Assembly: GCA_030038095.1 (NCBI GenBank)
Contig: JASHPK010000022.1
Span: 1-34,262, forward strand
Source of the DNA: Thermoplasmata archaeon
GTDB taxonomy: Archaea; Thermoplasmatota; Thermoplasmata; Lutacidiplasmatales; UBA184
Reading direction: 5' to 3'
Length of the DNA stretch: 34,262 bases
In this document: positions 5,641 to 22,608 of the stretch, one piece after another
Position numbering within the stretch: the stretch's first letter is position 1
How the letters are laid out: each line of letters opens with the position of its first letter
Notes under the pieces: generated by a model
What the model saw: the letters and a program-made list of their open reading frames with translations, nothing else
Told to the model about the DNA's origin: nothing
Databases searched by the model: none
Made by a program: the position numbers and the translations under genes

Positions 5641-6054
5641 GTGAGCTTCGACTTCGTCTACACCGCGATTCGGGTCCGAGACATGGCCGCCTCGATGAAC
5701 TTCTATACGGAAATCTTGGGAATGGAAGTCGTCGAGCCGCTTCAGCCAACGCCATTCACCAAGGGACAGGTGGTCATCCTCCGGAGCCCCGACGGTTCCC
5801 AGCAGCTCGAGCTGAATTGGTATGAGCCGGGGAGCCGGTTCGGTCCGAAATACACGAACGGGGAGGAGATGGACCACCTCGCGTTCGAGTGCGACGACGT
5901 GCCATCCGCGGTCGACGCGCTAGAGCGCCAGGGCGTGGAGGTACTTGTCCGCTCAAAGGAAATCGGGAACTGGAACGAGGCTTTTGTCAAGGACCCGAAC
6001 GGTATCTGGGTCGAATTACTACCGAGAAAGCGACCGACTGCTCCGAGCCAGTGA
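5641..6054 (+). CDS. VOC superfamily protein (glyoxalase I / dioxygenase fold)
   Basis: A 137-residue protein with two beta-alpha-beta-beta-beta modules of the vicinal oxygen chelate fold; it probably binds one divalent metal in the cytoplasm. Typical landmarks are YTAIRVRDM at the first strand, FYTEILGME, LELNWYEPG (Glu57), DHLAFECDD (His79) and DPNGIWVELLP (Glu125). These correspond to three of the four glyoxalase I metal ligands; the first ligand, normally His in the opening strand, is Tyr7 here, so methylglyoxal activity is not assured. An ATG 45 nt upstream (5596) is in frame, but the 15 extra residues fall outside the domain, whereas the GTG at 5641 starts four residues before the first strand and lies 28.5 bp after a TATA-like GATATC. 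Third codon positions are less G/C-rich than in most neighbours. Confidence 0.83.
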   Translation: MSFDFVYTAIRVRDMAASMNFYTEILGMEVVEPLQPTPFTKGQVVILRSPDGSQQLELNWYEPGSRFGPKYTNGEEMDHLAFECDDVPSAVDALERQGVEVLVRSKEIGNWNEAFVKDPNGIWVELLPRKRPTAPSQ

Positions 6055-6282
6055 GAAGGGTGGAATAGAGTGAGCTCTCGCCGGCCTGACGTGGGGCGCG
6101 CGGCCGATGACCTACCCGTGACCCGGTTGAGCGCGGGCTGAGAGACGGAGAGAACTCGAACCTGCTTACTCGGGCCGGCTTTGTCCGGGCGCTGCCCATC
6201 GGCGTCCCCCGGCGAACGGGCTGCTGGAAGGTGTAGCCAAGTCCACAGAACAGGTATCCCCCATGAGTCGGGTCCGGTTTTC

Positions 6283-6816
6283 ATGTCGGCCGTGCCAGTA
6301 ACACCTTCGGTTCCATGGACCGTGTCTCACGCCCGCACCACCTCTGGAGGGACTGCAGAGACGCTGGTCCTGGTCGGACTCATTCTACAGGTCCTGGGGG
6401 GAGCCCTCGTGATCGGAGGGCTGACCTGGTTCTTCGGCTACTCGGCCTTCCACCCCTTCCCGTTCCTTTGGGCAGCCATTATCGGCGGCGTGGTCGTGTC
6501 CGCGATCGTTGTCCTGTTCCTCTACTTTGCTTACACGCTTTCTTACCAGCGAATCCGACGCGGAGAATACGAGGCTGCCCGGACTCCCACCTTGGTGATT
6601 GGAATCCTTTCCCTGTTCGCGGGCCTTATCCCGGGAATCCTCTACCTCATCGGATACGCGAAGCTGGATTCGGCCGTTCGGGAGCAGCAGTCGTCAGCGA
6701 CCGGGTATGCTGCGTTCACGCCAGGTTCGCTGGTGGCGTGCAAGGGCTGCGGACGGGTCTATCCGATCGGTCATTCGGCGTTCTGCCCAGCTTGCGGTCA
6801 GAAGATGGCGGCCTAG
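6283..6816 (+). CDS. Three-helix membrane protein with C-terminal zinc ribbon
   Basis: A 177-residue protein with predicted membrane helices near residues 26-50, 62-86 and 103-124, followed by a cytoplasmic zinc ribbon made of Cys153-x2-Cys156 and Cys168-x2-Cys171 (CKGCG and CPACG). The arrangement resembles archaeal DUF-type integral membrane proteins with a DUF4190-like core in which a zinc ribbon monitors or binds a partner; I cannot assign a function. An open frame extends upstream to 6181, but those 34 residues are Arg/Ser/Gly-rich and non-hydrophobic, and the ATG at 6283 lies about 27 bp after GGTATC, a weak TATA candidate. It stands alone with no co-directional neighbour closer than 160 bp. 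Confidence 0.75.
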   Translation: MSAVPVTPSVPWTVSHARTTSGGTAETLVLVGLILQVLGGALVIGGLTWFFGYSAFHPFPFLWAAIIGGVVVSAIVVLFLYFAYTLSYQRIRRGEYEAARTPTLVIGILSLFAGLIPGILYLIGYAKLDSAVREQQSSATGYAAFTPGSLVACKGCGRVYPIGHSAFCPACGQKMAA

Positions 6817-6976
6817 ACCCGGAGTCTACTCATCAACTCGTGCAGCGCGGGCGCGGGGTTAATGTGGGACCCGCGAGGTCGAGGGCGGACCGCGATGAGG
6901 GCGGCGTAGCGAAGCTCACGAGAAGCGATGCCCTGCGGTGAGTCCGCCTTTTGGGAGCCCACTCGTTATATCGGGC

Positions 6977-7582
6977 ATGCACGAACGCAGCTTCACGGCC
7001 CGACCTACCCGAGCGGTCCGCTATGACCGGGCGGGGCGCACCGGTGTTGTGCGGGTCTTTTACGGGAGCACCTTGCGACCCGAGGACAGCGGATTCCCCT
7101 CGCTGATGGGATGGAAGAGAGGTCCAGCGACAGGAGTCGGGTTCCCGACCATCCAGTGCACCGTGACGTGCGATCAACCCGGCTATTGGAGCAACCTCGG
7201 ATGGATTCAGTGGGTAACGATGGATTATCATGGAGGGCACAAGGATGCGGCCCTCGTCGACCGACCCCCGTCGATGGCCCAGCTCGATCTTCCGTTCTCG
7301 ACGTTCGGCTACTGCCCCACATTCTTCGACGCCCCGGCGTACCCTTCGCACCCGAAGATCAACTGGAATGCCTCTCTCTTTCTCTGCACGTTTCCGATGA
7401 TGACCCGACGTGAGCCGATTGTGCCGCTGACGGGTTTCGAGTGGGGGTACCGGATCCCGCATCGGGGTGGCGCGGTCACCCGACTTCCGCTCCGAGTCGC
7501 GAAGGACGAGGACTGGAAGAGGACTCGAACGGAGGTCGCGCGGCGGCACCGAACGTGGACCTTTGCTCCCTCCTTCGTCTGA
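6977..7582 (+). CDS. Unrecognised soluble protein rich in aromatic residues
   Basis: A 201-residue protein that I do not recognise. It has no membrane helix or signal peptide. The core (about residues 45-180) is rich in Trp, Tyr, Phe and His (for example GWIQWVTMDYHGG, FSTFGYCPTFF, GFEWGYRI), with three scattered cysteines (in TIQCTVTC and FGYCP contexts), giving the composition of a real folded protein rather than a shadow frame. The frame is open 13 codons upstream (6938); the ATG at 6977 is chosen because the upstream part is unconvincing. A TTATAT island at 6966-6971 is too close to that ATG to be its TATA box, so the true start may lie further in (GTG at 7049). Bases 7583-7974 downstream are empty. 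Confidence 0.6.
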   Translation: MHERSFTARPTRAVRYDRAGRTGVVRVFYGSTLRPEDSGFPSLMGWKRGPATGVGFPTIQCTVTCDQPGYWSNLGWIQWVTMDYHGGHKDAALVDRPPSMAQLDLPFSTFGYCPTFFDAPAYPSHPKINWNASLFLCTFPMMTRREPIVPLTGFEWGYRIPHRGGAVTRLPLRVAKDEDWKRTRTEVARRHRTWTFAPSFV

Positions 7583-7974
7583 AGGTCGGACCGGACGCCG
7601 CGGCCGGGCCAACGACAGGAGTTCGATGGCACAGGTCTTTCGGCGAGCAGCGCGCGCGTCTGATGGCAGAACCGCGTTCAGTAGGAGGAGGGAGGGTACC
7701 CAGGCGTGGTTGCTTCGACGCTATAGCGGGGAGAATGCCCCTCCGAGAGTCAGTCCGCGGCCCCGGGAGGAGGTCCGAAGGGGCTCCGTAGAACCGGACC
7801 GGCGATTGCCGACGGGCCGGTTCAAACCTTGGTCGACCGGACCGGATACCCCCGGAAGCCCAAGAGTCCTCTCTCGCCGCGACAAGACTCGGGTCCGATG
7901 AATTCTCTATCCTCCTGCCACCGGCCCCTCCGGGTTTTGTCTCCCCGCGGGATTCAACTTGGGAGAATCACCGG
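7583..7974. other. Gene-poor interval between the aromatic-rich protein and the M19 dipeptidase
   Basis: About 390 bp without a convincing gene. Open frames exist on both strands but are Arg/Gly/Pro-rich with no domain, as expected by chance at this base composition. An A/T-richer patch around 7898-7912 (GAATTCTCTATCC) could hold promoter elements, but its spacing to the ATG at 7975 is too long for the leaderless pattern. Confidence 0.55.
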
Positions 7975-9174
7975 ATGATCCCCGAGACTCCTCTGCCCAC
8001 TGAACTCCAGAGATCCGCCATCGTCATCGACACTCATGCCGACACCCCGCAGCGGTTCGTGGACGAGCAGTTCGACTTCGCCGGACCTCTGGGCGGCGGC
8101 CACCTCAACCTCGAGTCGATTCACCAGGGCGGCCTGAGCGCGGAGTTCTTCTCCATCTGGGCCGAGCCCAAACGGTACGAGGGGCAGTATGCCCGCCGTA
8201 CCCTCGAGCTGATCGACTCCGTCCAGCGTCAGGTGTCCCGTCACGCGGACCAGATGGCCCTGGTGACCAGCTCCCAAGGAATCGAGGAGGCGTATCGGAG
8301 CCACAAGTTTGCCGCCCTGATGGGCATCGAGGGGGGCCACTCGATCGAGAACTCGCTTGCCTTGCTGCGACAATACTTCGCGCTCGGCGTCCGCTACATG
8401 ACGCTCACCTGGTCGAACTCGAACGACTGGGCGGACTCCTCCGGCGATATAGACGACCCTTCCGTCCCGCACGCTCCGGAGGGCCTAACGAAGTTCGGCG
8501 AGGAGGTGGTCCTCGAAATGAACCGGCTCGGCATGATGGTGGATATCTCGCACGTGTCCGATCCGACCTTCTATCGCACGCTAGCCGTCAGCCATGCTCC
8601 GCCCATCGCCTCCCACTCGGGGGCGCGCTCGCTGTGCGACCACCCGCGCAACATGACCGACGACATGCTTCGTGCGGTGGCCGAGTTCGATCGGTCGGGT
8701 TCGAGGGGCGGGGTCGTCCAGGTCAATTTCTTCTCCGGATTCGTCTCCCAGGACTACTGCGACGCGTGGAAGGCGCTCCGGCCTGAGGTCGACCGGGTCG
8801 TCGCCGAAACCCAAGAACGAGCCAGGGCCGAGGGCCGCGAGTTCTCGGCCGCGGACGGGGAGCGGCTCCGACGTCGCTACATGGACAGGATCCCCCGCCC
8901 GCCGCTCTCCCAGCTCGTCGACCAGATCGATCACGTCGCCCAGGTGGCGGGCGTCGACCACGTGGGCCTCGGCTCCGACTTCGACGGGGTGACCGGTCAG
9001 CTCCCGGAGGGCCTCGATTCGGCCGCCGACCTGCCCAAGATCGCTCGGGCCCTGCTCGAGCGCGACTACTCCGCCGACGATTGCCGCAAGATTCTGGGGG
9101 GCAACCTGTTACGGGTCTTTCGAGAGGTGGAGACCGTCTCGACGGCGGGCCGGGACGGGGTCCACTCCCTGTAA
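7975..9174 (+). CDS. Membrane dipeptidase (renal dipeptidase), peptidase family M19
   Basis: A 399-residue binuclear zinc dipeptidase of the amidohydrolase fold, probably cytoplasmic since no signal peptide is seen. Family ligands are all visible: His21-x-Asp23 in DTHADT, the bridging Glu119 in GIEGGHS, His193 in DISHVS and His214 in ASHSGARS, followed by CDHPRNM, and the Asp335/Asp337 pair in GLGSDFDG near the substrate site. Length matches bacterial and archaeal M19 enzymes (350-400 residues). The family cleaves dipeptides, including those with D-residues or dehydro-residues. It is a single-gene unit with large gaps on both sides; the start is taken as the first ATG, eleven codons before the first strand. 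The C-terminal 10 residues are dispensable-looking. Confidence 0.93.
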   Translation: MIPETPLPTELQRSAIVIDTHADTPQRFVDEQFDFAGPLGGGHLNLESIHQGGLSAEFFSIWAEPKRYEGQYARRTLELIDSVQRQVSRHADQMALVTSSQGIEEAYRSHKFAALMGIEGGHSIENSLALLRQYFALGVRYMTLTWSNSNDWADSSGDIDDPSVPHAPEGLTKFGEEVVLEMNRLGMMVDISHVSDPTFYRTLAVSHAPPIASHSGARSLCDHPRNMTDDMLRAVAEFDRSGSRGGVVQVNFFSGFVSQDYCDAWKALRPEVDRVVAETQERARAEGREFSAADGERLRRRYMDRIPRPPLSQLVDQIDHVAQVAGVDHVGLGSDFDGVTGQLPEGLDSAADLPKIARALLERDYSADDCRKILGGNLLRVFREVETVSTAGRDGVHSL

Positions 9175-9678
9175 GGTCCCTCTTGCTTGTGGGCAGTAGC
9201 GCCTCACCGCGGTCGGAGGGGACTTGGTCCAAGGGCGGTTCCGACCCTCCCGGCAGAACGTGCAGTGAGCGTCAGAACCTCCGGCGTTTCGCAGGGCAAC
9301 GTGGCTGCCAGCACAGCCGGGTCCGAGCCCTGGTCCTTCTAGGGGGAACCGCCGCATACTACCTTTGGCGCGACATCCAGCAGACTCGTCGTCGGAAGCG
9401 AGACGGCCTTTCGAGCGCCGTTCGGGAGCACGCCTCCGGGCGGGAGATTCAACCTCGGGCGGACCAACGTCGGAAGTTGTAGTCGCGACGAGGACGGAGA
9501 ACGTATCCGGCCGGGGGTCCCCGTCCCGCTCCGGATCGGCGGCCCGGCGCGCACCCCGCATGTGGGACGGGCGGAGCCTCAGTACCGGGAGCGAGCGCTC
9601 TCCGGAGTCGACCACCCGCGACCGGCTCGGACCGAAGACGGAAGAATCGGCGTACTGCTGACCGGGGTGAGGCGTCGG
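9175..9678. other. Gene-poor interval between M19 dipeptidase and DUF1801 gene
   Basis: About 500 bp in which I see no supportable gene, RNA or repeat. Several open frames cross it on both strands, all dominated by Arg, Gly, Ser and Pro with no recognisable domain. A short hydrophobic stretch encoded near 9325-9370 on the plus strand is too short and lacks an appropriate start. Confidence 0.5.
9666..9674 (+). promoter_or_regulatory. Possible ribosome binding site for the DUF1801 gene
   Basis: GGTGAGG lies a few bases before the ATG at 9679 and supports that start over the upstream in-frame start at 9562. Confidence 0.4.
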
Positions 9679-10089
9679 ATGCGAACGAAGACACGAGAAC
9701 CACGGTCGGGGAGGTCTCCCTCTCAGGAGATCGACGAGATGATCCGGGGGACGGACGACTGGAGAGGGGAGACGTTAGCGAGGCTCCGACAAGCGATCCG
9801 GAGGGCCGATCCCACCATCGTCGAAGAGGTCAAGTGGAGAAAGCCCAGCAACCCCGACGGGGTTCCGGTCTGGTCCCGTGACGGAATCGTCTGCGTCGGT
9901 AACATTCTCAAGAGCGCGGTTCGGCTGACCTTCCCCCAAGGCGCCCAGATCCGGGACCCGAGGAAGCTCTTCAACACGAGACTCGAGAGTCGCACGGTTC
10001 GCGCGATCGACGTGCACGAAGGAGAACGCGTCACCGACAGCGACCTCAAGGCGCTGATCCGCCAGGCCGTGGAGTTGAATCGATCGTAG
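9679..10089 (+). CDS. DUF1801 (YdhG/YjbR-like fold) protein
   Basis: A 136-residue small cytoplasmic protein matching the DUF1801 pattern: an amphipathic N-terminal helix (EIDEMIRGTDDWRGETLARLR), the conserved PTIVEEVKWRKPSNPDGVPVW segment, the glycine strand IVCVGNILKSAVRLTF, and the C-terminal DSDLKALIRQAVELN helix. The fold is related to frataxin-like and phosphoribosyl-binding-like small domains; no biochemical role is established for the family. The start is the ATG at 9679 with a GGTGAGG element in front; a longer frame reaches 9562 but adds only basic low-complexity residues. Neighbouring genes give no functional hint. Confidence 0.82.
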   Translation: MRTKTREPRSGRSPSQEIDEMIRGTDDWRGETLARLRQAIRRADPTIVEEVKWRKPSNPDGVPVWSRDGIVCVGNILKSAVRLTFPQGAQIRDPRKLFNTRLESRTVRAIDVHEGERVTDSDLKALIRQAVELNRS

Positions 10090-13990: not shown

Positions 13991-15499
13991 CTATGGGGCA
14001 CACGCCCCGAGGGCGGCGCCATCGTACGTCACGGAATCGATCACGTTGAGGTCGTAGTTGATCACGGAGCTCGAGATCGGGGCGTAGAAGAGCGGCGCCG
14101 AGTACGACTGGCCCGCCGCCGACACGATCCAGCTCAGGAAATCCACGAGCGCTTGGGCGTGGGCCATGGAGTACGAGGAGCCGTACGCCTCACCGAGGTC
14201 GGAGTAGACCAACACGTAGGTGTAGGTGACGATCGGATAGTCGCCCGGGCCGGGGGCATCCAGCACGGACACATTGTACCAGGTTCCTCCGGGCGTAGGA
14301 AAGAGGACCCTCGCGTCCGAGAGGGCGGATTCCGTGTCCGCGAGGTCGGCCAGGATGTAATTCCCGGCCGGGTTCTGGACCGCGCCGTACGGGATCGCAT
14401 CCGAGAGCGCGTACGACAGATCGACATAGCCGATCGAGTCCGGCATCGATTGTACCGCCTCGGTCATTCCCGAGCTACCCTTCGCCCCGACGCCGATGGA
14501 CGGCCAAAAGAGGGAGAGACCCCGGCCCACCGTGCTGTTCCACGTCGCGTTCGACTTCGAGAGATAGCTGGACCAGACGAACGTGGTGCCGCTCGCGTCG
14601 GATCGGTGGACCGCAACGATGGTCGCGTTGGGCAGGACCACCCCCGGATTGACCGCCTGAAGCGCGCTGTTGTTCCAGTTGGTGATGTCCCCGAGGTAAA
14701 TCCCGGCCAGTATCTGTCCCGTGAACTTGAGGGGATTGCTCACCGAGGGCAGATTGTAAATCGGAACGACGGCCCCGGCGGACTCCGGGAACGTGAACAG
14801 GCCGGGTGCCGGTTCCGTCGCGACCTCCGACGGACTGAGCGGTGCGTCAGTCGCGCCAAAGTCGATGGTCTTCTCGATTATGTCGGTGATGCCTGCGCCG
14901 CTCCCCTCGGCGAGGTAATTTACCGTGCTGTTCGTGTACGCGAGCGCCCACGCGTTCATCAAAGGCGCGACCAGGGTCGAGCCCGCCCCGTTCAAGGTCA
15001 GCCCGGCGGGGACGGAACAGCTCACTTCCTTCGCGGTGACGATGATCGAGACATTGGCCGACTTTGATTCGCTGTTGCCCGTCGCGGTCACCGTCAGGTT
15101 CCCGGTCAGGTTGGTGGTGCCGGAGGTGAACTGGACCGTCTCTCCTGACGTGGCGTTCAATGCCCCGAGCGCCCCGGGGGAGACAATCCAGGAGTACGTG
15201 ACCCCACTCGGGATGACGGCCCCGGACTGGTTCCATGCGAGAGCCCTGAAGTCCTGTTGTTGACCGAATCCGAGCTTCACACTCGCGGGCGAAATCGAGA
15301 CGAGCACCGGTGAACAGCCGGTGCAGGCTTTGGGGGTCCCGCTCGTGGACTTACCGTGCGAAGGCAGTAGGAAGGGAATCGCTATGGCGGATACCAGGAC
15401 CACCGCGGCGATTCCCACGGCCAATATTACGATCTGGAGGCGAGTGAATCTGGCTGGAGACGCCGGCGATGTGGTCGAGGATCCCGCTGCGGGCGGCAT
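13991..15499 (-). CDS. pstS: PstS-like phosphate-binding protein tethered to the membrane, with Ig-like domain
   Basis: A 502-residue extracytoplasmic protein: N-terminal signal anchor (helix about residues 21-43), a CTGC motif just after it, an Ig-like (Big_2-type) domain at about 62-145, and a PstS-type periplasmic binding domain from about 155 to the end. The PstS landmarks are LNGAGSTLVAPL at its start, the phosphate-binding Thr/Ser-rich GSGAGI and DFGATDAPLS segments, GDITNWNN, and VAVHRSDASGTT. PstS delivers phosphate to the PstCAB importer, but no pstC, pstA, pstB or phoU is in the window. The frame is open to 15763, yet the first 88 residues would be Ser/Arg-rich; the ATG at 15499 is chosen because a perfect CTTAAG lies 28.5 bp upstream and because the hydrophobic anchor then falls at a normal distance from the start. 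Confidence 0.88.
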   Translation of the reverse strand: MPPAAGSSTTSPASPARFTRLQIVILAVGIAAVVLVSAIAIPFLLPSHGKSTSGTPKACTGCSPVLVSISPASVKLGFGQQQDFRALAWNQSGAVIPSGVTYSWIVSPGALGALNATSGETVQFTSGTTNLTGNLTVTATGNSESKSANVSIIVTAKEVSCSVPAGLTLNGAGSTLVAPLMNAWALAYTNSTVNYLAEGSGAGITDIIEKTIDFGATDAPLSPSEVATEPAPGLFTFPESAGAVVPIYNLPSVSNPLKFTGQILAGIYLGDITNWNNSALQAVNPGVVLPNATIVAVHRSDASGTTFVWSSYLSKSNATWNSTVGRGLSLFWPSIGVGAKGSSGMTEAVQSMPDSIGYVDLSYALSDAIPYGAVQNPAGNYILADLADTESALSDARVLFPTPGGTWYNVSVLDAPGPGDYPIVTYTYVLVYSDLGEAYGSSYSMAHAQALVDFLSWIVSAAGQSYSAPLFYAPISSSVINYDLNVIDSVTYDGAALGACAP

Positions 15500-15524
15500 C
15501 CTGAACGTGGATGGACTTCGGCCC

Positions 15525-15530
15525 CTTAAG
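15525..15530 (-). promoter_or_regulatory. TATA box (CTTAAG) of the pstS-like gene
   Basis: CTTAAG is centred 28.5 bp before the ATG at 15499, the exact spacing expected for a leaderless archaeal transcript. Confidence 0.6.
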
Positions 15531-15884
15531 CTTGAGGAGGGGCTCGCCGGGGCCGCGGCGATCCATCCCTCATCCGTCTCGCCGGTATCGCGGGAGTGGA
15601 CTCCGATCGACGCGGACGTACCACTCGAAGGGACCTCCCGTCCGGCGGTTAGCCTCCGTAGACTATCGGGGTCGTTATAGGAGTGAGGTGATCGGCCGGC
15701 GGATGACCGCCGTTGGACCACCTCCCCAGAGGGATTCCGACGGTATCCAATGACGAAGCTCATCCGGCGGACCCGCAGAACGGACCCTCGAGCGCCTCGA
15801 CCGCCAAGCTCGACTCCGAATGAGCCGGGGAGCTCGGTCCTGCTTGACCGTCTCCAGCGAGTCCCGTGAACGGTGAACGGCGGA
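15531..15884. other. Divergent intergenic region between pstS-like and urocanase genes
   Basis: About 350 bp between two divergent promoters. Open frames here are extensions of the two genes and carry no domain. I see no operator palindrome strong enough to report. Confidence 0.5.
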
Positions 15885-15916: not shown

Positions 15917-17584
15917 ATGCCCCGCACGCTCGAATCCGACCGGATCGTGCGCGCCCCCCACGGCACGACGCTCTCGTGCCGCGGCTGGTCGCAGGAGGCG
16001 GCGCTCCGCCTCTTGATGAACAACCTCGATCCCGAGGTCGCCCGCGACCCCCGCCATCTGATCGTGTACGGGGGCCGGGGCAAGGCCGCGCGGGACTGGG
16101 AGTCGTTCGATCGCATCGTCGCCGCTCTGAAGACGCTCGGGAACGACGAGACCCTCCTCGTCCAGTCCGGTAAGCCGGTCGGGGTCTTCCCGACCCATCC
16201 CTTCGCGCCCCGCGTGTTGATCGCGAACGCGCTTGTCGTCCCCCGCTGGGCGACGGACGAAATCTTCTGGGACCTCGAGGCCCGGGGGCTCACCATGTAC
16301 GGCCAGATGACGGCCGGAAGCTGGATCTACATCGGCACCCAGGGAATCCTGCAGGGGACGTACGAGACCCTCGCCTCGCTCGCCCGCCTCGAGTTCCAGG
16401 CGCCCGACCTGAAGGGCCGTTGGATGCTCACGTCCGGACTCGGGGAAATGGGCGGCGCGCAGCCGCTCGCCATTACGATGCTCGGGGGCGTAGCGCTCGT
16501 CGTCGACGTCGACCCGAAGGCCGTCGCGCGTCGCCTCGGACACCGGTACCTCGATGTCGAAGCCACCGATCTCGACGAGGCGCTGGCCCGGGTTCAGTCG
16601 GCGGTCACCGGGCACCAGCCCCTCTCGGTGGGCCTGCGAGCGAACGCCGCCGACGTCTACCCCGAGATCGTCCGCCGGGGCCTGACGCCGGATATCGTGA
16701 GCGACCAGACCGCCGCCCACGACATTCGCGTCGGGTACATCCCTCAGGGGCTGACCGTCGAGGCCGCGGCCGAAGCGCGCTCGAAGGACCTCGCGGGGTA
16801 TCTGGTCCGGGTGCGCGCCTCGCTGGCGACCGAGGCCCGGGCGATCCTCGCGCTGCAACGCCGGGGGTCGCACACCTTCGACTACGGTAACGACTTCCGA
16901 ACTCAGGCCCGCGACGCGGGGGTCGCGGACGCCTTCGAGATTCCGGGCTACGTCCCGAAGTACATCCGTCCGCTCTTCGCGGTCGGCAGCGGCCCGTTCC
17001 GGTGGCTGGCCCTCAGCGGCGAACCCGGGGACATCCGTCGGATCGACCGGATGATCTTGAGCGAGTTCTCCGAGAACGCCCACCTCTGCCGCTGGATACG
17101 CCTCGCGGGAGAGCGGGTGCACTTCCAAGGACTGCCCGCGCGGATCGGCTACATGGGGTACGGCGAGCGGGAGAAGTTCGGGCATCTCGTGAACGCGCTC
17201 GTGCACGACGGAGAGATCACGGCCCCCGTGGCCATCGGACGCGACCATCACGATACGGGAAGCGTCGCGAGCCCGTTCCGCGAGACCGAGGCGATGCGCG
17301 ACGGGTCGGATGCGATCGCCGATTGGCCGATCCTGAACGCGTTGCTCAACGTGGCGAGCGGCGCGAGCTGGGTGTCGGTCCACCACGGGGGTGGGGTGGG
17401 GATCGGCAACTCGATCCACGCCGGGCTCGTCGTGGTCGCGGACGGGACGGAGGACGCGGACCGACGGATCGACCGAGCGCTCCACAACGATCCCGGCCTC
17501 GGGGTCGCGCGGCACGCGGACGCGGGATATCCGGAGTCCATCGAGCTTGCCCGTCACGCGAGGTTCCGCATCCCGGAGAGCTGA
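15917..17584 (+). CDS. hutU: Urocanate hydratase (urocanase)
   Basis: A 555-residue enzyme of the histidine-degradation pathway that converts urocanate to 4-imidazolone-5-propionate with tightly bound NAD+ as electrophile; cytoplasmic homodimer. Nearly every family block is present: [20 protein letters not shown] at the N-terminus, [50 protein letters not shown] (NAD+ site), [36 protein letters not shown] and [11 protein letters not shown]. The start at 15917 gives the normal length (550-560) and the usual N-terminal motif at residue 20; an upstream start at 15866 adds 17 unmatched residues. One oddity: the family's catalytic Cys in the ARIC-W motif (Cys410 in Pseudomonas) is Gly here. The next gene (M29-like, 71-bp gap) is probably cotranscribed. 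HutH, HutI and HutG are not in the window. Confidence 0.94.
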
Positions 17585-17655
17585 ATCCGAGACCCGATCC
17601 CCGGCCCGAGCGGTGGCCCGCAAAGACCCAAGAGGGGTCAGGGCTTCCGCCCGGC

Positions 17656-18765
17656 ATGCCGACCCTGCCGACCGAGGCTCAGGCCGATCTCGTCGCACGT
17701 CGCGTGCTCACCTCCCGGCTCGGACTTCGTCCGAGGGAGAACGTCACGATCGAGGTCTATCCGTCTTCGCTCCCGTGGGCCGCGGGGTTCGTGCGCCAGG
17801 CACGCCGTCTCGGCGCGTACCCGCTCCTCCACTACGAGGACGAGAGCTCCTACTGGCAGGCGGTCGACTCGGGGAACGCGTCCATCGTGGGGACCCCCGG
17901 GAACCACGAGTGGGCGGCCCTCGAGAAGACCGACGTGTACGTCTACTTCTGGGGGCCGGAGGATCAGGCCCGGTACCACGCCCTGCCGGAATCGACCGCG
18001 TCGAAGCTCACCTCGTTCAACCGACACTGGTACGAGATCGCGGGAAAGAGCGGGGTGCGCGGGGTCCGTATGGGAATCGCCCGGGTCAGCGAGGAGAACG
18101 CCCGATTCTGGGGCGTTTCGCTCGCCCGCTGGAGGAAGGAGGTCCTCGCGGCGTCGCTCCGCGACCCCGAGACGCTTGCGCGGGACGCCGGGCGCATCCG
18201 CCGCGCCCTCGCCCGCGGCTCCGAGCTCCGGATCCGCCACCGCAACGGGACTGACCTCACCCTTGGACTCGCCCAGCGGCCGCCGACCGTCTTTCTCGGG
18301 AAGGTGACCCCGAAATCCCGAGGCGGGGCCGCCGGGACGATGGCGTCGGTCCCGGACGCCAACGTGCTCGTGGCCCTCGCGGAGGACACTGCCGACGGGA
18401 CGTTCATCGCGAACCGTCCCACGCTCATTCCGGGTCCATCCCTCCGGGGCGCGCGGTGGACGTTCGAGGACGGCCGGCTCGCTCGAGCGGACTTCGCGGA
18501 AGGCGAGCGTTCGTTCCAGCGTCGGTTCGCCGCTGCGTCCGCCGGGAAGGACCGCCCCTCCTTCATCGAGATCGGGCTCGACCCGGCTATCCATGCGTCA
18601 CCGACGCTCGAGGAGAGCGAGCGCGGGGCGGTGACGATCGGGGTCGGAGGCAACTCGCGGCTCGGCGGGAAGACGAAGTGCGACTTCCTCTCCTATGTCA
18701 CGCTCGCCGGCGCCACCGTATCGGTCGACGGCCGGCCCCTCGCCCGGGCGGGTCGGATCGTCTGA
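17656..18765 (+). CDS. Aminopeptidase family M29-like protein lacking most metal ligands
   Basis: A 369-residue protein aligned over its whole length with M29 (AmpS/AmpT) metallo-aminopeptidases: an N-terminal Rossmann-like domain (residues 10-110, with FVRQARRLGAYPLLHYED) and a C-terminal domain with the family's ASVPDANV, FIANRPTL, LRGARWTFEDGRL and IEIGLDP blocks. The best alignment I can make by eye retains the Glu of GE-type block 316 (in FIEIG) and the final Asp (KCDF), but the positions of the ligands Glu250, His345 and His376 hold Asn, Thr and Lys. It may therefore not be a peptidase; the same superfamily includes NicX-type ring-opening dioxygenases. It follows the urocanase gene on the same strand, so a role in histidine or urocanate breakdown is possible but unproven. 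Confidence 0.75.
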   Translation: MPTLPTEAQADLVARRVLTSRLGLRPRENVTIEVYPSSLPWAAGFVRQARRLGAYPLLHYEDESSYWQAVDSGNASIVGTPGNHEWAALEKTDVYVYFWGPEDQARYHALPESTASKLTSFNRHWYEIAGKSGVRGVRMGIARVSEENARFWGVSLARWRKEVLAASLRDPETLARDAGRIRRALARGSELRIRHRNGTDLTLGLAQRPPTVFLGKVTPKSRGGAAGTMASVPDANVLVALAEDTADGTFIANRPTLIPGPSLRGARWTFEDGRLARADFAEGERSFQRRFAAASAGKDRPSFIEIGLDPAIHASPTLEESERGAVTIGVGGNSRLGGKTKCDFLSYVTLAGATVSVDGRPLARAGRIV

Positions 18766-18839: not shown

Positions 18840-18845
18840 TATATC
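18840..18845 (+). promoter_or_regulatory. TATA box of the two-helix surface protein gene
   Basis: TATATC within GGTATATCTC is the best TATA match in this part of the window. It lies 56 bp before the ATG at 18899, giving a leader of about 28 nt that ends with a purine-rich GGAAGGG, a possible ribosome binding site. The gene is thus unlike its leaderless neighbours. Confidence 0.55.
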
Positions 18846-18898: not shown

Positions 18899-20362
18899 AT
18901 GGAGACCAAGGCTGCAGAGAAAACGAAGAGAAATCGAACCATCGGCTGGGTGGTCGCGCTCGGGGCGACGGTCCTGATGGCCTTCGCGATCGTTCCGGCG
19001 CTCGCGGGGGCCGCGAGCGCCGCGGCCGCGACCCCGGCTGCCGGCTCGCCCCAGACCCAGCAATGGGCGTATGGCGGGCAGGGATGGTCGAACAACACCA
19101 TCACGATCGGAAACGCCACCGCCACCTGGGACGCCTGGTTCGGCTGGACCGTGGTCTTCACGGCGACGAACACGTCCGCGACGACCGTGCTGCTCGAGGA
19201 GCAGCGGACGGTCGGGGTGACCGTGAGCGCGACGTACAAGGGCCCGATCGTTCAGGCCTCGTACTTCTATCACGGGCAAGAGGTCGACACCGCGTTCGTG
19301 AACCTCACGAACCAGTCGACGGTCTACTCGGACGGGGTCGCGCTCCCGGCGCTCGGGGTCGATAACGTGTCGGCGAACATCCACGGCGCAATCGCGGAGA
19401 TGGTCAACGTGACGGCCGACTCGCACACCCGCAGCGCCTCGCTGACCGTGAACGGCAACGCCTCCGCGGCGGTGGCGTTCACGCCCAGTCTCGGGATCGT
19501 CCCGCTCAACCTCACGGACGTCGACCAGTGGAACTCGACCGCGAACGCGGTCGGCTCCGCGGGCTGGCAGCTGAACTGGTCGTGGGTCGCCTCCGGGCTC
19601 AACGGGACGACGGGAAGCGGCTCGGGCTCGCACGGCGGGGACCTGACCGTCTCGGGGTCGGTTGCGCTCTCCGGGTACAAGGTCGGGATCGTGAGCGCCT
19701 TCTCCGACCACCACGCCCGCATCGGGATCGTGCTCGTTTACCAGGGACCGTTCGACAACTACGACATGTTCATCTTCGTGCCCCACGACTTCGACCTCTT
19801 CGGCGGAGCGGCCCTCCCGTTCGACTCGATGGCGTACGGATCGGCGTCGATCGCCTCGGGGGAGACCCTCTATCTGGGTCAGGGACCCCGCGGACCGGAG
19901 ATCCAGGCGGCGGCCTCGACCTTCGCGGCGAGCGACGCGGCCACCAGCACGTCGATCGCGCCGATCGCCGGATCGAGCGCCGGCCTCGTCACCGCGGCGG
20001 CCCCCGACGGGCCGGCCGCGACGATCACCGGCCAGCCGATGAGCGTCAGCGCCGCGCAGGCGGAGGCGAACTGCCTCACGGGCGGATGCAGCGCGAAGGC
20101 CGCGAGCGGCGGCGTCGCCTCGGGGATCCTCCTCGTGGCGGTGGTCGCGCTCGTAGCCATCGTGATCCTCGGCACGGTCGGCGTCATCGAGTGGCGCAGC
20201 TACGCCGCCCGCACGGCGCGCACGAAGAGCTTGATCGGCGGCTACGGCGAGGCCTGGCAGAACGGGGTTCCCCCCGCCGCCTCCCTGCCCGGAGCGCCGG
20301 CCGGTCCCACGACACCGGTGGGCGGACCGTCCGCTCCCGAGGAGCCTCCTCGGAGCCTGTAG
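18899..20362 (+). CDS. Surface protein with N- and C-terminal membrane segments, unrecognised ectodomain
   Basis: A 487-residue exported protein that I do not recognise. Residues 14-40 form a signal-like hydrophobic segment ending in AAGSPQ, an Ala/Ser-rich cleavage-like region. The ectodomain (about 50-390) is beta-rich, with many N-x-S/T sequons and a Ser/Gly-rich loop (TGSGSGSHGG). A membrane helix at about 405-430 is followed by a basic stretch and a Pro/Ala/Gly-rich cytoplasmic tail. A cysteine pair (NCLTGGC) sits just before the helix. The same architecture is seen in the other large surface proteins here. The frame is open to 18797, but the ATG at 18899 starts immediately ahead of the signal sequence and has a purine-rich GGAAGGG in front. 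Confidence 0.78.
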   Translation: METKAAEKTKRNRTIGWVVALGATVLMAFAIVPALAGAASAAAATPAAGSPQTQQWAYGGQGWSNNTITIGNATATWDAWFGWTVVFTATNTSATTVLLEEQRTVGVTVSATYKGPIVQASYFYHGQEVDTAFVNLTNQSTVYSDGVALPALGVDNVSANIHGAIAEMVNVTADSHTRSASLTVNGNASAAVAFTPSLGIVPLNLTDVDQWNSTANAVGSAGWQLNWSWVASGLNGTTGSGSGSHGGDLTVSGSVALSGYKVGIVSAFSDHHARIGIVLVYQGPFDNYDMFIFVPHDFDLFGGAALPFDSMAYGSASIASGETLYLGQGPRGPEIQAAASTFAASDAATSTSIAPIAGSSAGLVTAAAPDGPAATITGQPMSVSAAQAEANCLTGGCSAKAASGGVASGILLVAVVALVAIVILGTVGVIEWRSYAARTARTKSLIGGYGEAWQNGVPPAASLPGAPAGPTTPVGGPSAPEEPPRSL

Positions 20363-20448: not shown

Positions 20449-20925
20449 TCAACGGCCGCGAGTCGCACTCCGACGGGTCGAGAGGTGCGGACGGGCGAGC
20501 TCGATCACGTGCCGGTCGGTCTCGTAACGGACCTTCTGGAGTGCTTCCGCGGGCTCGGTCCACGCGAAGCGGTCGAAGATCGGCTCCGTACGCACCTCCC
20601 CGTCCGAGACGTAGCCGAGGAAGTAGACGGTCGTCTTGTGGACGTTGACGGCCTTCTTGAGGTCGTAGAAGCGGTAGGAGACCTCCCCGAGCTCCTCGCC
20701 GAGCGTGACCGAGCTCAAGCCCGTCTCCTCCCGGATCTCCCGCAGGGCCGCGACGCCGAGCGACTCGCCCGGATCGACGTGCCCCTTCGGAAAGCACCAC
20801 CGCTCCTCCGCGGCCTCGTGGAGCAGCAACAGCTGACCGGAGTCGGACCGCACCACGAGGGCTCCCGCGGCGAGTTCGGGCACGATCGGCGCTTCGGCGC
20901 GGTACGGAGCGCTGCGCGGCGGCAT
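20449..20925 (-). CDS. Nudix hydrolase (diadenosine-tetraphosphatase-like)
   Basis: A 158-residue cytoplasmic Nudix enzyme. The 23-residue Nudix box spans Gly48 to Leu70: GHVDPGE then seven residues then REIREETGL, a perfect match to G-x5-E-x7-R-E-U-x-E-E-x-G-U, where the Glu cluster binds Mg2+ or Mn2+. The FPKGHVDPGE context and the VSYRF and TTVYFLGY strands resemble Ap4A hydrolases of archaea and bacteria, which cleave diadenosine polyphosphates or other nucleoside diphosphate derivatives. The last 15 residues are basic and probably disordered. The ATG at 20925 lies about 26 bp after a CTTAGC element on its strand; the acyl-CoA synthetase diverges from the same 90-bp region. Confidence 0.9.
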   Translation of the reverse strand: MPPRSAPYRAEAPIVPELAAGALVVRSDSGQLLLLHEAAEERWCFPKGHVDPGESLGVAALREIREETGLSSVTLGEELGEVSYRFYDLKKAVNVHKTTVYFLGYVSDGEVRTEPIFDRFAWTEPAEALQKVRYETDRHVIELARPHLSTRRSATRGR

Positions 20926-21015: not shown

Positions 21016-22608
21016 ATGCTCGACCCGGAAGAGGAGTACCACGACCTCGCGGACCTCGTCCGGCGGAAGGCGCGCAAGAACGGACCCAAGACCGCCTTCC
21101 GTTTCCACGGTCGGGACATCTCCTACGCGGAGCTGGACCGCGAAAGCGACCGAATCGCGAACGGCCTCCATGGGGCGGGGATCCACGCCGGGGACCGGAT
21201 CGCATCGCTCCTGTTCAACACGCCCGAGTTCCCCTTCCTGTGGTTCGGTCTCGCGAAGCGGGGTGCGGTCCTGGTCCCGCTGAACACTGGCCTGAAGGGC
21301 GAGATCCTGCGCTACGAGCTCGCCGACTCGAGTCCCGCGGGCCTCGTCATCGACCTCCGGCTCTGGCCGAACTACGAACCGCTGCGGGTCGGGCTCGGGA
21401 TCTCCCGAGAATGGACGGTCGGCGCCCCGACGGGGGACGCCGCAGACGCCGCCGGACTCCCGTCGTTCGCCTCCCTGGCGAGCGATGAGACCGCCCCGCC
21501 CGGTCCGAAGCTTCAGCCGAGCGACCCGGCCTCCATCATGTACACGAGCGGAACGACCGGACCGCCGAAAGGAGCGATCATCCCGCACGAGAAGCTGATC
21601 ACGACGCCGCGGGAGATCGGCCAGCGGAGCCGACTCGGACCGCGGGCGGTCCTCTTCACCGCGCTCCCGCTCTTCCACTGCAACGCGCAGGAGATGACGG
21701 CCCTCACGGCCCTGCTCAACGACCTGACCGCCGCCTTCGACGAGCGGTTCCATGCGTCGGCGTACTGGGAGACCGCGGCGGGAATGGGCGCGACCCACAT
21801 CTCGCTCCTGATCGCGATGATCAACATCCTGTACAAGCAGCCCGAGAAGGCCACGGACCGGACCCACGGGGTCCGCACCGCGCTCACGGCGGGGACCACG
21901 AAGGCGATCTGGCCGGATTTCGAGCATCGGTTCGGGGTCTCGATCGTCGAACTGTACGGCATGACCGAGTGCGGCTGCACGACGCTCATGAACCCGCCCG
22001 AAGCGATCCGCGTCGGGTCCGTCGGGACGCCGCTCGGCTTCGTGGAGGCCGACGTCGTGGACGACAACGACCAGCCGGTGCCTCCCGACACGCGGGGGGA
22101 GCTCGTGGTCCGCCCGAAGGCGCCGTTCACGATGTTCCTCGGGTACCTCAACAAGCCCGAAAAGACGGTCGAGTCGTGGCGGAACCTCTGGTTCCACACG
22201 GGAGACTACGTCACGAAGGACCGCGACGGCTACTACTACTTCATCGACCGGAAGAAGGACGTCATCCGCCGTCGGGGGGAGAACCTCGCCCCGTACGACG
22301 TCGAGTCGGTCCTGAACCGGCACCCCGCCGTGTTCGAGTCGGTGGTCGTCGGCATCCCGTCGCCCCTCGGGGAGGAGGACGTGAAGGCGTTCGTCCAGCT
22401 GAAGCCGGGCAGCTCCGCGGAGCCGACCGAGCTCTTCGAGTTCTGCATCGAGCACCTCCCGTTCTTCATGGTGCCGAAGGTCCTCGAGTTCATCGACGAA
22501 ATCCCGAAGACCGCCAATCAGAAGTCGCAGCGTTATCTCCTCCGGGGCCGCAAGGGAGGCGTCGAGTACGACCGGGAGCAGCTCGGCGTCGTCGTCCGCA
22601 AGCCGTAG
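21016..22608 (+). CDS. AMP-forming acyl-CoA synthetase (CaiC/FadD-like)
   Basis: A 530-residue enzyme of the adenylate-forming superfamily that activates a carboxylic acid to acyl-AMP and then acyl-CoA. Landmarks: the ATP loop YTSGTTGPPKG at about residues 175-185, the A5 motif ELYGMTE, the A7 HTGDYV (about 395) with the adjacent DRKKDVIRRRGENLAP hinge, and the A10 lysine region near 501 (NQKSQRY). The RRRGENLAPYDVE hinge is most like crotonobetaine/carnitine- and medium/short-chain CoA ligases, so a fatty or branched acid is a likely substrate, but this is not fixed by sequence. The stop at 22608 is followed 31 bp later by the PIN gene. Other acyl-CoA genes lie within 5 kb. Confidence 0.93.
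   Translation: MLDPEEEYHDLADLVRRKARKNGPKTAFRFHGRDISYAELDRESDRIANGLHGAGIHAGDRIASLLFNTPEFPFLWFGLAKRGAVLVPLNTGLKGEILRYELADSSPAGLVIDLRLWPNYEPLRVGLGISREWTVGAPTGDAADAAGLPSFASLASDETAPPGPKLQPSDPASIMYTSGTTGPPKGAIIPHEKLITTPREIGQRSRLGPRAVLFTALPLFHCNAQEMTALTALLNDLTAAFDERFHASAYWETAAGMGATHISLLIAMINILYKQPEKATDRTHGVRTALTAGTTKAIWPDFEHRFGVSIVELYGMTECGCTTLMNPPEAIRVGSVGTPLGFVEADVVDDNDQPVPPDTRGELVVRPKAPFTMFLGYLNKPEKTVESWRNLWFHTGDYVTKDRDGYYYFIDRKKDVIRRRGENLAPYDVESVLNRHPAVFESVVVGIPSPLGEEDVKAFVQLKPGSSAEPTELFEFCIEHLPFFMVPKVLEFIDEIPKTANQKSQRYLLRGRKGGVEYDREQLGVVVRKP

Follow-up and report, generated by a model that had tools for sequence, protein, structure and literature searches.

We find that the gene directly downstream of hutU in this member of the Lutacidiplasmatales encodes a protein, P0001, that keeps the overall fold of the M29 aminopeptidases and in which, as judged from two alignments that agree, the loss of the M29 metal ligands is complete rather than partial. 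It is well supported at the level of sequence that P0001 would not be an M29 peptidase, and the same loss extends through a family of paralogues that many Lutacidiplasmatales genomes carry in several copies. The window, by which we mean the whole 34,262-nucleotide stretch of DNA that was analysed, makes up one entire contig of a genome that is 92% complete, and the features of its hutU locus are as follows:

15917 to 17584, forward strand: hutU, encoding urocanate hydratase (P0002), by Pfam and NCBIfam profile matches
17585 to 17655, forward strand: 71-bp gap between hutU and the M29-like gene, GC-rich (27% A+T)
17656 to 18765, forward strand: gene for the M29-fold protein P0001 (369 amino acids), an intact open reading frame whose product has no M29 metal ligands and belongs to a family of Lutacidiplasmatales paralogues
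18840 to 18844, forward strand: weak TATA-like element ahead of the next gene
18899 to 20362, forward strand: c4, whose protein seems by eye to be secreted or membrane-bound
20449 to 20925, reverse strand: c2, NUDIX hydrolase by Pfam, part of a conserved downstream block
21016 to 22608, forward strand: c3, AMP-binding acyl-CoA ligase by profile matches, part of the same conserved block

The start of hutU was placed at the ATG at 15917, which a codon-usage caller prefers, the first in-frame start being a GTG at 15866. No AT-rich promoter-like stretch was found in the gap between hutU and the M29-like gene, and a scan of the gaps of its relatives for TATA-like elements likewise found none, as against the single one in the window ahead of c4. 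The c4 gene comes after the M29-like gene or, where the latter is absent, directly after hutU, and a search of Pfam with the c4 relative in locus L125 returned no match. Elsewhere in the window, positions 7975-9174 on the forward strand match Peptidase M19, the family of membrane dipeptidases, with an E value of 1.7e-101. The product of positions 13991-15763 on the reverse strand resembles, by eye, a phosphate-binding protein of the PstS type, to which the open reading frame as listed adds a long N-terminal extension.

When compared with Pfam, P0001 matches family M29 (PF02073) with an E value of 7.4e-10 and 38.6 bits over a cut-off of 27, the best stretch spanning residues 187-289, which agrees with the initial reading of this gene as encoding an M29-like protein beside the urocanase; a search of NCBIfam gave no match. 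The predicted model of P0001 (pLDDT 95.4, pTM 0.91), together with structural comparisons using Foldseek and VIA, indicates that the M29 fold spans the whole chain. The eight best Foldseek matches are chains of NicX, PepS, AmpS and AmpT, with NicX on top, and the VIA Z scores are 28.7 for PepS, 28.2 for AmpT, 26.2-26.3 for NicX, 13.6 for CgnE and 13.1 for CgnB, with all others at or below 8.9. P0001 is therefore like the M29 aminopeptidases AmpT (2ayi), AmpS (1zjc) and PepS (4icr, 4icq and 4ics) over 339-352 aligned residues (Z 25.4-28.7) but is approximately 40-50 residues shorter and, unlike them, lacks all five side-chain metal ligands along with the tyrosine of the motif that holds them, the tyrosine being placed by counting.

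Our source for the M29 'EEHYHD' motif and for the ligands of AmpS was the accessible portion of PMC7023490. When 13 family members and 26 homologues from the class are aligned with MAFFT, AmpT residues Glu250, Glu316, His345, His376 and Asp378 fall opposite N236, F303, T327, L345 and Y347 of P0001, respectively, and a profile-profile check of the register with HHalign (100% probability, E = 1e-43, 355 columns) gave the same assignment. The sixth residue of the motif, Tyr352, corresponds to S334 when counted on from His345. The first-pass annotation of this DNA had described three ligands as replaced and two as retained. Its replacements of Glu250 by asparagine and His345 by threonine stand; the residue opposite His376 is a leucine and not the lysine it had named, and the retention of Glu316 and Asp378 does not hold, for the glutamate and aspartate it had in mind are E305, two residues past the Glu316 column, and D343, four residues ahead of the Asp378 column.

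This loss is a property of a family. The window's genome carries four copies of the M29-like gene, and family matches were detected in 75 of the 101 genomes searched, including 59 of 61 from the genus (none in G019 or G057), at one to nine matches per genome when fragments are counted. We also scored up to six candidates per genome in 292 genomes sampled evenly across the phylum, and there only the window's family gave matches below 1e-60. We aligned 80 family members, namely P0001 and 79 relatives that remained from 80 fetched loci once L185 was dropped for a stop codon, and every one of them lacks the canonical residue at all five ligand columns. With the ligands gone from P0001 and from every aligned relative, the earlier suggestion of a repurposed fold rather than an M29 peptidase is supported, and more strongly than it was first put. 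The 26 class homologues, which belong to other families, come from 16 genomes picked for matching P0001 and include several partial rows; all five ligands are present in 15 of them, four in 2 and fewer in 9. Further M29-like proteins with degraded metal sites are encoded by L098-L102, L114 and L115, all from other families of the class. Loss of the metal site may thus predate the expansion of the family in Lutacidiplasmatales, the branching order of the metal-free groups beyond the genus being tentative in the quick tree that we built.

The M29-like gene is under purifying selection. Its dN/dS is 0.11-0.20 in five pairs of genomes, three of which lie inside one genome trio and one of which (G005-G026) already has a dS of 1.15; the corresponding hutU values are 0.06-0.12. 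Values are higher against the window's own copy, at 0.38 and 0.44 in two distant pairs with dS of 0.8-0.9.

Could P0001 still be a working metalloenzyme? The simplest version of this idea, in which it is an active M29 aminopeptidase whose ligands appear to be missing through an alignment error, draws on the above-threshold PF02073 match and on the M29 fold itself, but MAFFT and HHalign arrive at the same register and a sequence-based search of the family for an alternative conserved set of histidine, aspartate and glutamate residues of the M29 kind revealed none, making this explanation extremely unlikely. In a second version, a metal would be held by substitute ligands such as E305, on the strand of Glu316, or E319, E320 and E322, among others. 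E305 is present in 21 of 21 members of the hutU-linked clade and H195 in at least 95% of them, while across the family 73 of 80 members have E319, the same number have E322, and 58 have an acidic residue at position 320, such that these three positions could in principle hold another metal. However, E305 is limited to that one clade (1 of 59 members elsewhere in the family), no histidine is conserved to 85% across the family, and at the two columns of the His-x-Asp pair hydrophobic or aromatic residues predominate. We consider a substituted metal site distinctly improbable.

A different kind of metal chemistry is suggested by NicX, a 2,5-dihydroxypyridine dioxygenase (7cn3, 7cup) that is like P0001 in fold and of similar length, with 308 residues aligned, and whose iron ligands are given as His265, His318 and Asp320 in the available part of PMC7910607. 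Unlike in NicX, the positions of His318 and Asp320 are taken in P0001 by a leucine and a tyrosine, L345 and Y347, according to a HMMER alignment of the family profile with 7cn3. His265 itself falls at a two-residue insertion that adjoins F303 in this alignment, or at F303 by ungapped count, and no histidine is found at or beside F303. A NicX-like ring dioxygenase was rejected, its iron ligands being absent. Because the metal and iron ligands of both enzyme types are missing, we strongly infer that P0001 should act neither as an M29 metallopeptidase nor as an iron dioxygenase of the NicX type.

The nearest precedent for P0001 is instead CgnE, a protein of crocagin biosynthesis that is both M29-derived and metal-free. 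According to the part of PMC10070186 that we could access, CgnE and its sister CgnB (6zsu, 6zsv) possibly evolved from M29 peptidases, and CgnE has two of its ligands mutated and binds no metal; the title of that paper names the two 'unusual peptide-binding proteins'. CgnE and P0001 share a degenerate metal site on an M29-derived fold, but CgnE has lost two ligands and has a zinc-binding sister in CgnB, whereas in P0001 five are lost and the loss holds throughout a large archaeal family. Among the called neighbours of the M29-like gene, which are hutU, c4, the NUDIX hydrolase and the acyl-CoA ligase, no biosynthetic cluster was seen. The metal-free M29-fold family described here resembles CgnE in principle but is a larger, archaeal group in which the loss of the site has gone further.

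Because the ligands are absent and one distant precedent exists in CgnE (Z 13.6), we favour a ligand-binding, non-peptidase role for the metal-free M29-fold protein P0001, a reading to which we would give an even chance of being correct. The P0001 lineage, which shares descent with metal-binding M29 aminopeptidases, has lost the whole dinuclear site, as the sequences show, and duplication in Lutacidiplasmatales has given a family of which many genomes carry several copies. Under this model, the mode of action of P0001 would most likely be binding and not metal catalysis, with the former metal cleft holding a ligand, either a peptide or a small acid, and with P0001 working as an accessory, a carrier or a regulator. 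The clade-specific residue E305, which by strand alternation is predicted to face the old metal cleft, might then tune which ligand is held. Against a non-catalytic view, the polar residues that are conserved in the family (D62, E63, R106, R135, R138, D299, E319, E322 and N333) could form a new active site that needs no metal.

The pairing with hutU is real but patchy. Relatives of P0001 with at least 50% identity occur in 20 genomes, the window's included (the copy in G044 is partial), and in 14 of these the M29-like gene is the next one after hutU and has the same orientation. The hutU-linked genes belong to one clade of 21 rows in the quick tree, inside which unlinked genes are nested, and the gene-neighbour check that had been put forward for this pair thus recovers a pairing that is conserved within one clade. 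In the 14 paired genomes the gap between the two genes is 22-71 bp, a length that depends on the start codons chosen, with an A+T content of 5-35%; because the gaps are this short, hutU and the M29-like gene are probably co-transcribed in this clade. The contig of G050 begins just before its M29-like gene, and the block that comes after is that of the hutU locus. In the other five genomes (G027, G036, G042, G044 and G054) the relative sits elsewhere. In the first four of these hutU has c4 or the NUDIX gene next to it, and in G054 the neighbours of the M29-like gene match those in G036.

We then read the hutU locus in 50 genomes of the genus, taken from 56 with a hutU match and with G005, G026 and G047 included because they carry the gene, and found the M29-like gene present beside hutU in 14 and absent from that position in 36. 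In 35 of these 36 genomes, c4 or the NUDIX gene lies next to hutU, G022 having neither. Between hutU and c4 in G029 (locus L097, positions 9118-9765) we detected a decayed relic of an M29-like gene, comprising a 52-residue piece of 47% identity (tblastn E = 6e-5) and a further piece, visible by eye, in another frame; the gene was therefore once present in this slot and later lost. Outside the genus, we looked on the downstream side of hutU in 20 loci from the class, over as much sequence as each offers (mostly about 2.5 kb; 1.7 kb for L236, 163 bp for L232, nothing for L235), and no M29-like gene was matched there. We also observed a divergent M29-like gene between hutU and the NUDIX gene in another locus (L195, positions 5971-8132), where it is convergent with hutU and is followed 32 bp downstream by a gene that by eye encodes a PLP-dependent aminotransferase-like protein. 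L254, whose DNA is 75% identical to that of L195, has the same arrangement of M29-like gene and hutU.

By its score against the hutU equivalog TIGR01228 (883.8 bits, cut-off 375), and with three Pfam domains, the urocanase of the window is a standard member of its family. The one change that we found is in the PARIC motif, where the cysteine, which we take to be the catalytic Cys410 of P. putida urocanase, is replaced by Gly428 in P0002 (PARIG, window positions 17135-17149). Its description as an altered urocanase in the first-pass annotation is accurate for this single substitution, and the protein is otherwise an ordinary HutU. Across 47 distinct genomes of the genus, a set to which the paired genomes G005, G026 and G047 do not belong, the residue is cysteine in 42, alanine in 4 (G011, G046, G018 and G024) and glycine in the window alone, and among the 20 class loci it is cysteine in 15 and leucine in 5. 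Taken over all 67 hutU genes, glycine, alanine or leucine stands at this position in ten (window, L053, L057, L217, L219, L228 and L230-L233), and because the cysteine is replaced this often it may not be essential. A coupling of the urocanase change to the M29-like neighbour was rejected, given that 2 of the 5 genus genomes with a replaced cysteine (the window's and G011) have the neighbour.

We know of no hut operon with an M29-fold partner. HutI scores above its cut-off in 12 of the 14 paired genomes, and matches to HutH and FTCD_N were obtained in 13 and 9 of them, respectively; the corresponding figures in the 62-genome samples are 46, 55 and 38. Because most of the paired genomes have their HutH, HutI and FTCD genes away from hutU, the M29-like gene fills no known gap in the hut pathway, and its substitution for a missing hut enzyme was rejected on the same counts. 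The window's own genome is without a strong HutI match and G021 has only a HutI fragment; in the former, the absence may be a gap in the assembly. The proposal that the protein takes part in imidazole catabolism is consequently not shown by these data: the remaining hut enzymes lie elsewhere, most of the hutU loci read in the genus have no such neighbour, unlinked members occur in the same clade, the contexts of the paralogues are varied and the urocanase change is independent of the neighbour.

What the paired gene does can be viewed in three ways. The pairing may be accidental, a member of an expanding family having landed after hutU and been carried along by a stable block, with a function unrelated to histidine. 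This account, which concerns the role of the protein and is compatible with the metal-free reading of P0001, falls only a little short of an even chance in our estimation. It would explain why the block of c4, NUDIX hydrolase and acyl-CoA ligase persists whether the gene is there or not, why close relatives sit elsewhere in five genomes and a relic remains in the slot in one, and why the paralogues have varied contexts, but it sits less easily with the maintenance of short, same-strand gaps in 14 species and with the different M29-like lineage in the same slot in L195. Alternatively, P0001 could be an enzyme whose old cleft has gained a new active site that uses no metal and which acts on the product or a side product of urocanase, for example in opening or protecting the unstable imidazolone ring. 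The conserved pairing and short gap fit such an enzyme, as do the ability of NicX, among the nearest folds, to open a heterocycle (the pyridine ring), the restriction of E305, N148 and T349 to the hutU-linked clade, and the more divergent genes of L195 and L254. We nevertheless regard it as unlikely, since the NicX residues His318 and Asp320 are L345 and Y347 here and His265 has no counterpart, no hut step is systematically missing, and 36 of the 50 genus genomes read lack the gene beside hutU. Finally, it is rather improbable that the family as a whole consists of ligand-binding proteins or metal-free enzymes of which the hutU-linked branch became a new auxiliary of histidine breakdown, such as a carrier, protector or ring-opener of imidazolone propionate.

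Pfam-based annotation would label these genes as aminopeptidases even though their sequences are without the M29 metal site, and genome surveys of soil archaea could in this way miscount them as protein-degrading enzymes. The family also offers a clear, multi-copy case in which to ask what a metalloenzyme fold does once its metal site is gone. Literature searches on M29 metal-ligand homologues, archaeal pseudoenzymes and urocanase yielded, among the matches listed, no paper that we recognised as dealing with this family. A paper on the Lutacidiplasmatales (PMC9287336) reports histidine degradation genes, and in the portion of its main text available to us neither 'M29' nor 'urocan' occurs.

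Beyond the hutU locus, paralogues adjoin genes for ABC transporters, an ammonium transporter, a DUF72 protein, GNAT enzymes and others, and no common theme was seen among these neighbours, whose Pfam assignments come from 20 proteins picked out of clusters that recur, the window supplying two of the 20. L127, L129 and L169 carry M29-like genes from different clades, and in each of these loci a relative of one and the same HpcH/HpaI aldolase is nearby, joined in two of the three by a luciferase-like monooxygenase. It looks as if the same positions were visited by different paralogues.
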